The notes under the pieces: generated by a model
What the model was told of the DNA's origin: nothing
The model's input: only the letters and a program-made list of their open reading frames with translations
The model's database searches: none
Translations under genes and position numbers: made by a program
Shown: piece by piece, positions 50,702 through 52,919 of the stretch
Layout: each line of letters begins with the position of its first letter
Position numbering within the stretch: the stretch's first letter is position 1
From: Malassezia japonica
Lineage: Eukaryota; Basidiomycota; Malasseziomycetes; Malasseziales; Malasseziaceae
Length of the DNA stretch: 64,000 bases
Assembly: GCF_029542785.1 (NCBI RefSeq)
Contig: NC_083372.1
Span: 744,001 to 808,000, forward strand
Direction of reading: 5' to 3'

Positions 50702-50722
50702 GGGGCTGTGGCGCCGTACGTT

Positions 50723-50730
50723 CCACGTCA
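50723..50730 (-). promoter_or_regulatory. UPRE-like TGACGTGG upstream of HAC1
   Basis: CCACGTCA on the plus strand, that is TGACGTGG on the minus, matches the metazoan UPRE core bound by XBP1/ATF6 and lies 88 bp upstream of the HAC1 ATG. It would allow autoregulation, as known for yeast HAC1. Function here is inference. Confidence 0.5.
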
Positions 50731-50818: not shown

Positions 50819-52020
50819 ATGACGACCGTATCCACGGCGATTGACCCCACATTACTTGTGCGTGCCGCTGCTGTGGCACCCACGCCCAGTCCCCCGGGCC
50901 TGAAACGGTCCGGGAGCGAGGAGCTCAGCACTCCCCCACCCAAAGTGGCGCGCTCCACCGACGAAGAGAAGAAGGCGCGCTTGATGGCGAGGCAACAACG
51001 CAATCGTCATTCCGCACAAGTGTCGCGCGAGAAGAAAAAGGCACATGTCGAACAGCTGGAACTCGAAGTTGAACAGCTTCGGGCCGAGAAGCTGGCATCA
51101 GAGAAGCGCGAACTGGAGGCACAACAAGAACGCAAAGCCTTGGAGAGTCAGGTGAATGACCTCGGCTCCAAGGTCCAGTCGCTTGAAAAGTTGCTCGTCC
51201 AACTCGTCCAGGCCCAAAAAGGTGGGCCAGAGCACGGCGTGCGAGGCAACTTGACAGAGCTTGCCGAGGTCGTGACGAAGATGTCGGGTGAGTTCTCTAC
51301 GGAGAAGTCTAACTCTGGTACGGATCACGCAAGAGCAGCGCCGGATGCAGCGCCGAGCACGGTGGCGTCCCACAGCCCATTGGAAACTCGCTCGAATGAT
51401 AGCACTTGCCTTCCAGCAGCGGAGGCGACCAGTCGTGCACCGCACGACTTGGCCCAGCAGCGGGTGCAGACACATCAATCGAGCTCGAGTCCAGTGGTGT
51501 CTTGGACGCCGTCACGTTGCCGGCAGAAGCAGCAACCAATGGCAGCAGCATTGCGCAACTCGTACCTGGCGAAGCTTCTTCAGGGGATCTCCACGGCCAC
51601 TCGTACGACGTCGCCAGCCCTATCCTGTTCCCCTCGCTCTCCGATCTCTGGGTCCCACCGGCGGGTCCTTCGGATCCGGCTTCGGATCCCTTCCGACCGG
51701 CTGCACATGGCACTGAAGAAGCACTCGCTTCGCCAGGTGCCTCTGTGAATACCGAGCTGGATATGGACCTCCTCCTGTCCTCTTTTGCGCCGACGCCTGA
51801 CCACGCGTCGCAGTGCTCTGATGCCCTCTCTTTTGTAACGACGCCGCCGAGTCAACTGGACATTGACGCGGCTGTTGCGCCTTCCACTGTGTTGGATGCG
51901 CCTGTTTTCCCTGCTTACGACTACCTGGATCTTGACCTGGCGCTTGAAGGAGCCGTTCCGGCCTGGCTGGACAAGCCGGCGCCGGTGCCCTCCGCGGCGC
52001 AGCAGGGCCTCTGCGTGTAA
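50819..52020 (+). CDS. HAC1: HAC1/XBP1-type bZIP factor of the unfolded protein response (spliced form)
   Basis: The spliced product is 386 aa from 50819-51416 joined to 51458-52020. The unspliced frame stops at 51748 (309 aa). The basic region (about residues 51-74) contains NRHSAQVSREKKKAHVEQLE with the N-x7-R core of bZIP proteins and the Hac1-like SREKKK; the zipper runs to about residue 125. Splicing swaps a Ser/Arg/Pro-rich tail for one with acidic, hydrophobic segments (NTELDMDLLLSSF, YDYLDLDLALEG), the expected activation domain. No conventional GT-AG intron with the local consensus is present. By homology, Ire1 cleaves and the tRNA ligase joins this mRNA during ER stress. Basidiomycete orthologues are Ustilago Cib1 and Cryptococcus Hxl1. 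Confidence 0.88.
51417..51457 (+). other. Predicted unconventional (Ire1-type) 41-nt intron of HAC1
   Basis: Both borders fall in the identical 7-nt loop CAGCAGC, cut after the first G (51416 and 51457), which fits the CNG|CNGN Ire1 consensus. The 5' loop is closed by a 6-bp stem, GCCTTC/GGAGGC (51408-51413 with 51421-51426). The 3' loop (51455-51461) has only two or three closing G-C pairs. Between them AGTCGTGC and GCACGACT form an 8-bp hairpin with loop ACC (51431-51449), which would bring both sites together. Removing 41 nt shifts the frame from the bZIP ORF exactly into the downstream open frame. Confidence 0.85.
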
Positions 52021-52182: not shown

Positions 52183-52288
52183 GTGAGTCGACTTGACCGG
52201 TCGAGCACGCAGCATGGTGCTTCCGCTTCATGCTTTTGCGCTGCGACGACGCGGTAATCATTTTCATTTACAGTTGCTAACCATTCAG
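52183..52288 (+). other. 106-nt intron in the RPS8 5' leader
   Basis: GTGAGT donor, a GCTAAC branch-like site at 52275-52280 and CAG acceptor at 52286-52288, seven nt before the ATG. It is several times longer than almost all coding introns in the window. I looked for snoRNA boxes in it and saw none that convince. Confidence 0.6.
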
Positions 52289-52295
52289 GCTCAAT

Positions 52296-52919
52296 ATGGG
52301 TATTACTCGTGACTCCCGTCACAAGAGGTCGGCTACCGGTGCGCGCCGCGCCTACTACCGCAAGAAGAGGCAGTTTGAGCTGGGTCGCCAGCCCGCTAAC
52401 ACGCGTATTGGTGCCAAGCGTATCCACGACGTCCGCGTCCGTGGTGGCAACATCAAGCCCCGTGCTCTCCGTCTCGAGAGCGGCAACTTTGCCTGGGGCT
52501 CGGAGAACATCACTGCCAAGACCCGTATCCTGGGTGTGGTGTACAACGCCTCGAACAACGAGCTTGTCCGTACCAACACGCTCGTGAAGGGTGCCGTTAT
52601 CCAGATTGACGCTACTCCTTTCCGCCAGGCGTACGAGAAGCACTACGGCCAGCCGGTGACCAAGCGCCGCGTGCCCGGTGTGCAGCCCCCCACTGAGGAG
52701 GTCAAGAGGAGCCAGCACGTCGAGCGCAAGCTCGCTGAGCGCCGCAAGGACGCCAAGGTTGACCCTATCGTCGAGCAGCAGTTCGGTGCCGGTCGCCTCT
52801 ACGCCGTCATCTCGAGCCGCCCCGGCCAGTCGGGCCGTGCTGACGGTTACATCCTCGAGGGCAACGAGCTGGAGTTCTACGCTCGTCGCCTCCGTAACGC
52901 CAAGTCCAAGCACGCCTAA
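52296..52919 (+). CDS. RPS8: 40S ribosomal protein eS8
   Basis: 207 aa with no intron in the coding part. It starts MGITRDSRHKRSATGARRAY, the invariant eS8 N terminus, and continues with the family's RVRGGNIKPRALRLESGNF and ends with LRNAKSKHA. It is a structural protein of the small ribosomal subunit. Codon choice is strongly biased to GCC/CGC/AAG, as expected for a highly expressed gene. Confidence 0.97.
   Translation: MGITRDSRHKRSATGARRAYYRKKRQFELGRQPANTRIGAKRIHDVRVRGGNIKPRALRLESGNFAWGSENITAKTRILGVVYNASNNELVRTNTLVKGAVIQIDATPFRQAYEKHYGQPVTKRRVPGVQPPTEEVKRSQHVERKLAERRKDAKVDPIVEQQFGAGRLYAVISSRPGQSGRADGYILEGNELEFYARRLRNAKSKHA

Follow-up and report, generated by a model that had tools for sequence, protein, structure and literature searches.

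The window, a stretch of 64,000 nucleotides of the Malassezia japonica genome, very probably encodes on its forward strand a HAC1-type, Ire1-spliced mRNA, a reading to which we assign a probability of roughly 0.93. The kind is already known from HAC1, cib1, HXL1 and XBP1, and this Malassezia gene is a further member of it. Under ER stress, Ire1 would cut the mRNA in two loops of the form CNG'CNGN, taking out 41 nt, pairing between the exon flanks would hold the exons together for ligation, and a Trl1-type ligase would join them. The resulting frame switch would exchange the basic C-terminus of the unspliced protein (Hac1u) for the acidic tail that ends the spliced form (Hac1s), and this tail would activate target genes. 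Established by the sequence are the sites, the two frames, their conservation, and the Ire1 and ligase ORFs; the molecular steps are our interpretation of them. The locus is made up as follows.

50819 to 51748, + strand: unspliced ORF (Hac1u, 309 aa), a bZIP protein with a basic C-terminus, from the ORF listing and its translation
50969 to 51196, + strand: bZIP domain common to Hac1u and Hac1s (PF00170)
51417 to 51457, + strand: predicted 41-nt Ire1-type intron, with cuts after G51416 and after G51457, from the loops, the frames and the homologs
51458 to 52020, + strand: exon 2 in the tail frame, the acidic tail of Hac1s, from its composition and its alignment to three Malassezia proteins

The bZIP family PF00170 scores 25.5 bits on the spliced protein, under the cut-off of 27.6, and 29.9 bits for this gene in a search of the genome in which frame neighbours were included; it is precomputed for 21 of the 24 homologs described below. 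The heptamer CAGCAGC stands at 51414-51420 and again at 51455-51461, so placed that the predicted intron has the borders CAG'CAG, not GT-AG. Removal of 51417-51457 carries the bZIP ORF over into a second frame, which runs to 52020, for a total of 386 residues and a stop. The two C-termini are of opposite character: the Hac1s tail has 26 D/E and 2 K/R in the 187 residues from the junction, and Hac1u has 16 K/R and 1 D/E in the 93 residues past the 3' site. An earlier note on this DNA had placed the intron at the same coordinates, between identical loops spaced 41 nt apart, with a second part of 563 nt and a total of 387 codons, all of which we could re-derive from the letters. The identical loops of 7 nt that it described are present twice, but the repeat itself is longer, a run of 10 nt (CCAGCAGCGG) at 51413-51422 and 51454-51463, and because of this length the exact cut cannot be fixed from the sequence of a spliced product alone.

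The evidence that carries the main reading is the conservation of these sites among relatives. A profile search in which 8000 candidates were scored returned at least 24 homologs at E ≤ 1; organisms are named for three of the 24, all of them Malassezia (M. yamatoensis, M. sp. CBS 17886 and M. nana), and among the 24 matches listed, of which these are the only named ones, none from outside Malassezia was seen. The lineage that the earlier note had in mind, the Malasseziomycetes, is borne out by these three names. In the alignment of homologs that the earlier note had suggested, all of the 20 proteins that are unspliced and long enough to reach the sites carry both, as LPA[AV]...[QLR]Q[RW]V, a pattern written after the rows had been viewed. 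This alignment comprises 21 rows (the 20 homologs and the window), several of which are closely related (P0001 at 98% identity). The other homologs are three annotated models (P0020, P0021 and P0025), in which the 5' half is present and is followed by the tail frame, and P0024, which at 178 aa stops short of the site. The two sites have mean pairwise identities of 0.76 and 0.77, compared with 0.20 in the interior (6 columns) and 0.22 in the flanks, and the intron lengths implied for the homologs and the window are 35, 38, 41, 44, 47, 53, 56 and 62 nt. The peptide of the 5' loop, LPA[AV], spells CNGCNGY under any codon choice. At the first codon of the 3' loop, 12 of the 21 rows have Q, 8 have L and 1 has R, residues encodable by CAG, CTG and CGG. 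A tree of the shared part has long branches, with 9 of 21 inner branches well supported.

A further conserved stretch lies upstream of the 5' site, an alanine-proline island (RAAPDAAPS, 51332-51358) in which A, A and P are invariant in 21 of 21 rows and mean pairwise identity is 0.67, against 0.2 around it.

The tail is conserved as well, and its conservation extends beyond the part that overlaps the unspliced frame. It aligns with database proteins of M. yamatoensis, CBS 17886 and M. nana over NGSSIA and LDLLLSS, the starts of these three tails having been chosen by the analyst, and the motif APLFPxYDY is found in CBS 17886 and M. nana and weakly in M. yamatoensis. A search with the tail alone, over a length range that left out the longer annotated proteins, gave one close relative, P0007 (94%).

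51757 to 51801, + strand: conserved motif of the tail frame, LDMDLLLSSFAPTPD, from the alignment to Malassezia tails
51898 to 51951, + strand: motif of the tail frame, APVFPAYDYLDLDLALEG, kept in CBS 17886 and M. nana and weak in M. yamatoensis

Domain and structure matches in the genome of the host (8.43 Mb, 9 contigs) identify an intact Ire1 ORF and an ORF for a suitable RNA ligase. The only Ribonuc_2-5A match lies in an ORF of 1061 aa that also has a kinase domain; against the PDB this ORF matches IRE1 best (2rio, E 6.6e-116), with an alignment that runs through the RNK.HHF stretch. One fungal Trl1-type ligase ORF of 921 aa contains ligase, kinase and CPD domains. Matches to bZIP_1 number nine genome-wide, seven of them above the cut-off, and the gene described here is the seventh by score.

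At the level of RNA structure, two arrangements of the splice sites have to be considered, hairpins that present the loops before cutting and a pairing between the exon flanks.

51408 to 51426, + strand: 5' splice-site hairpin, a 6-bp stem (one U.G) with the 7-nt loop CAG'CAGC, from pairing and the residues of 21 sequences
51431 to 51449, + strand: internal intron hairpin of 8 bp with a 3-nt loop, 51431-51438 pairing with 51442-51449
51453 to 51463, + strand: 3' splice site, the loop CAG'CAGC on 2 bp and then a G.G mismatch, from pairing
51402 to 51409, + strand: exon-1 arm of a possible exon-exon pairing, from the minimum-energy fold
51460 to 51467, + strand: exon-2 arm of the same possible pairing, from the minimum-energy fold and a pairing test from residues

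The 5' stem, which the earlier note had called perfect, does have 6 bp, but one of them is a U.G pair; the internal 8-bp hairpin that it described was found. In a fold prediction of the kind that it had proposed, neither 7-nt loop forms in the minimum-energy fold of 51400-51475, where the 3' site is unpaired. That fold is a three-way junction of -30.3 kcal/mol (z-score -2.2; 11 of 500 shuffles equally stable), in which the 5' hairpin takes a shifted register, 51410-51414 with 51421-51425, of 5 bp and a 6-nt loop AGCAGC. The 5' hairpin in its expected register together with the internal hairpin reaches -19.7 kcal/mol, as against -30.3 kcal/mol. Eight contiguous pairs between 51402-51409 and 51460-51467 are part of the minimum-energy fold and recur when the spliced RNA is folded.

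The other species are known here from their proteins alone, searches of bacterial and archaeal contigs with P0004 and of viral contigs with an alignment having given no DNA of other Malassezia. A loop or pair in them is therefore judged by whether some choice of codons for the residues would allow it, and is not read directly; the controls are the same structures slid by 1-6 nt, and the tested structure was derived from the window, a bias in its favour. By this measure the 5' stem is pairable in 126 of 126 cells (21 sequences by 6 pairs), against 109 for the best of 12 slid versions, and six pairs of the exon-exon pairing likewise in 126 of 126 cells in 21 sequences, against 114 for the best slid version. 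For the 3' stem the figure is 84 of 105, versus up to 100 for slid versions. In P0018 three residues have changed together (H, V and W), which turns the same G-C into A-U in the exon-exon pairing as well as in the 5' hairpin; in P0023 the W is the sole change, leaving G.U at the pair changed in P0018. The exon-exon pairing is a possible second structure, compatible with all 21 sequences, and an exon-exon "zipper" has reportedly been described in the XBP1 literature. All 21 sequences have G.G at the third pair of the 3' stem (51452-51464), a curious feature to be constant in a splice-site hairpin. A search of Rfam gave nothing relevant, its single match (E 2, under its gathering score) being due to chance.

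Three other explanations of the locus have to be weighed. A spliceosomal intron might join the bZIP frame to the tail frame, as a donor GTGAGT at 51288 with CTAAC at 51309 would allow, and the models of three Malassezia species do get to the tail via some predicted intron. However, a stop in the tail frame at 51400 confines the junction to 51403-51748, and the branch consensus CTRAY occurs at 51309, 51797 and 51818 and nowhere within this range. The 51288 candidate also has 22 nt between branch and YAG, whereas YAG follows 1-2 nt past the branch in 26 of 44 intron-like patterns from the window and sampled loci of the same genome (L002-L009 and L011-L014), with a donor-branch gap of at most 60 and with overlapping or duplicate entries counted. 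Shuffled sets gave about 2.4 patterns per set at these distances against the 26 observed, the total of 44 being little higher than the 35.4 of the shuffles. We rejected the conventional intron at 51288 on the stop, the missing CTRAY and the atypical branch-AG distance, and regard a spliceosomal junction in general as very improbable. The models of M. yamatoensis, CBS 17886 and M. nana (P0020, P0021 and P0025) use introns into the tail that these data suggest are probably wrong predictions.

As an observation in its own right, intron-like patterns in this genome are compact, with CTRAY and then YAG 1-2 nt on (26 of 44, duplicates included). The next gene (52296-52919), which we take to resemble ribosomal protein S8, has by eye an apparent intron at 52183-52288 just before its start codon, with GTGAGT and a CTAAC 4 nt before CAG.

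Alternatively, the tail might be reached by ribosomal frameshifting or not be translated at all, with the twin sites kept only as a protein motif. Both frames are open over 51458-51748, itself unremarkable, as the tail frame is open across this overlap in 20% of 20,000 codon shuffles, and the twin loops are absent from the minimum-energy fold, as this explanation would have it. We consider it hardly credible all the same: the conservation falls into two short islands around a spacer that is unconserved and variable in length, a pure peptide motif would not predict a variable residue limited to CNG codons or the linked, pair-keeping changes of P0018, and the tail is conserved past the overlap.

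That the twin loops are a chance Gln/Ala codon repeat in a GC-rich gene, in a window whose + strand has 707 CNGCNGN sites and with an open tail frame that is plausible by chance, has next to no probability, and chance is set aside because both sites recur across homologs (20 of 24), the tail being conserved too. Four of the 707 sites, this 5' site included, have a 6-bp stem; given these stem counts and the open-frame shuffles, the window alone is suggestive, not decisive, and the case for Ire1-type splicing rests on conservation rather than window statistics. The earlier note's interpretation of the gene as a HAC1 mRNA spliced by Ire1 is thus supported by the conserved sites, the frame switch, the acidic tail, the Ire1 and ligase ORFs and a conventional intron that is disfavoured.

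The unspliced protein deserves attention of its own, as its end is conserved in the same bases that encode the acidic tail.

51665 to 51724, + strand: basic motif VLRIRLRIPSDRLHMALKKH, conserved at the C-terminus of the unspliced frame and overlapping the tail frame

Mean pairwise identity over this end is 0.57 (21 rows), against 0.19 in the preceding stretch, and the consensus of the basic motif is roughly LR[IL]R[LF][KR]IP..R[LM]...L.K. A single DNA can account for both the M. nana tail (P0025) and the unspliced end of P0016, its sister row, at 29 of 30 codons; the M. yamatoensis tail is compatible, at 22 of 30 codons, with the basic motif of the window in the other frame (17 at the next best place), and the fit of the CBS 17886 tail is poor and non-unique (17-19). 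When 29 codons of the overlap are compared between the window and the M. nana group, 13 match in the unspliced frame and 2 in the tail frame, a count that comes from one pair of lineages and a stretch picked once the motif was seen. Another island is conserved in both frames, reading QQPMAAAL in the unspliced one (0.79) and TNGSSIAQ in the tail frame. The Hac1u C-terminal motif, searched for across the organism's genome, turned up nowhere but in the gene itself, and a PDB search with the unspliced protein gave nothing meaningful. The conserved end and the codon comparison suggest that the unspliced end may be under selection and Hac1u functional. We speculate, at a little short of even odds, that the unspliced mRNA encodes in Hac1u a second selected regulator, which may bind Hac1s and hold it back, or else guide its mRNA, in the manner of XBP1u in animals, and that the borders are written twice in the RNA. 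If this is true, one locus would give rise to an activator and a brake out of overlapping frames, and its splice borders would be encoded as a pre-cut hairpin and then as an exon-exon pairing for ligation.

In S. cerevisiae HAC1 the frame switch is brought about by Ire1 and tRNA ligase, and metazoan XBP1 has an intron of 26 nt and relies on the RtcB ligase. With XBP1 the Malassezia gene shares the loop consensus, a short intron and two C-terminal frames, but it differs in its 41 nt and its Trl1-type ligase; unlike S. cerevisiae HAC1, with its 252 nt, it has an unspliced protein whose end is long and conserved. We set the gene beside Hac1, Cib1 and Hxl1 by their descriptions and not by sequence comparison. 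The consensus CNG'CNGN, which the Malassezia gene has in common with S. cerevisiae HAC1, is given in the available part of PMC8071499 with introns of 20-26 nt in filamentous ascomycetes, 65 nt in U. maydis and 252 nt in budding yeast, and introns of the CTG-Ser1 clade span 19 to 848 nt in the text available from PMC6222058. Ustilago maydis cib1 resembles the present gene as a basidiomycete bZIP gene with a short Ire1 intron, and a regulatory role has been proposed for its unspliced form (PMC8071499); compared by description only, it differs in its 65 nt from the 41 nt here and the 35-62 nt of the homologs. Cryptococcus neoformans HXL1 is similar in the CAG at each border of its 56-nt intron and in C-termini that differ before and after splicing (PMC3154848). 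Unlike the Malassezia gene, HXL1 also has a conventional intron of 55 nt upstream, and its protein is different. The unspliced XBP1 mRNA is translated and yields a negative regulator, according to the available passages of PMC3154848, which also describe HXL1 as having no 5'UTR complement to its intron.

For the Malassezia gene the outcome was the same. Taking the 100 nt upstream as the 5'UTR, the duplex with the intron amounts to -34.4 kcal/mol, a strength reached by 168 of 500 shuffled introns and by 10 of 59 other pieces of CDS; a translational block by such pairing was rejected on the shuffled introns, the pairing being, unlike that of S. cerevisiae HAC1, not above shuffles. In the promoter, 50721-50730 (TTCCACGTCA) is similar to the element of U. 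maydis Cib1, TGCCACGT with CG or GT after it, as given in the available part of PMC4836707. The TGACGTGK core occurs 4 times in the window against 5.4 expected, no commoner than chance, and the resemblance is a lead only.

To judge by titles and the openings of abstracts, the accessible literature on Malassezia together with Hac1, Ire1, tunicamycin or ER stress contained nothing on this gene, and an earlier prediction is possible, for example in an intron survey of 2011. That survey of Hac1/Xbp1 introns, by Hooks and Griffiths-Jones, may include a Malassezia. The gene provides a defined candidate for the switch of the unfolded protein response in the skin yeasts of the genus Malassezia, with a precise predicted junction to seek in any ER-stress RNA data and an implied series of intron lengths from 35 to 62 nt. 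Its conserved unspliced C-terminus offers a way to ask whether a fungal Hac1u works like XBP1u.
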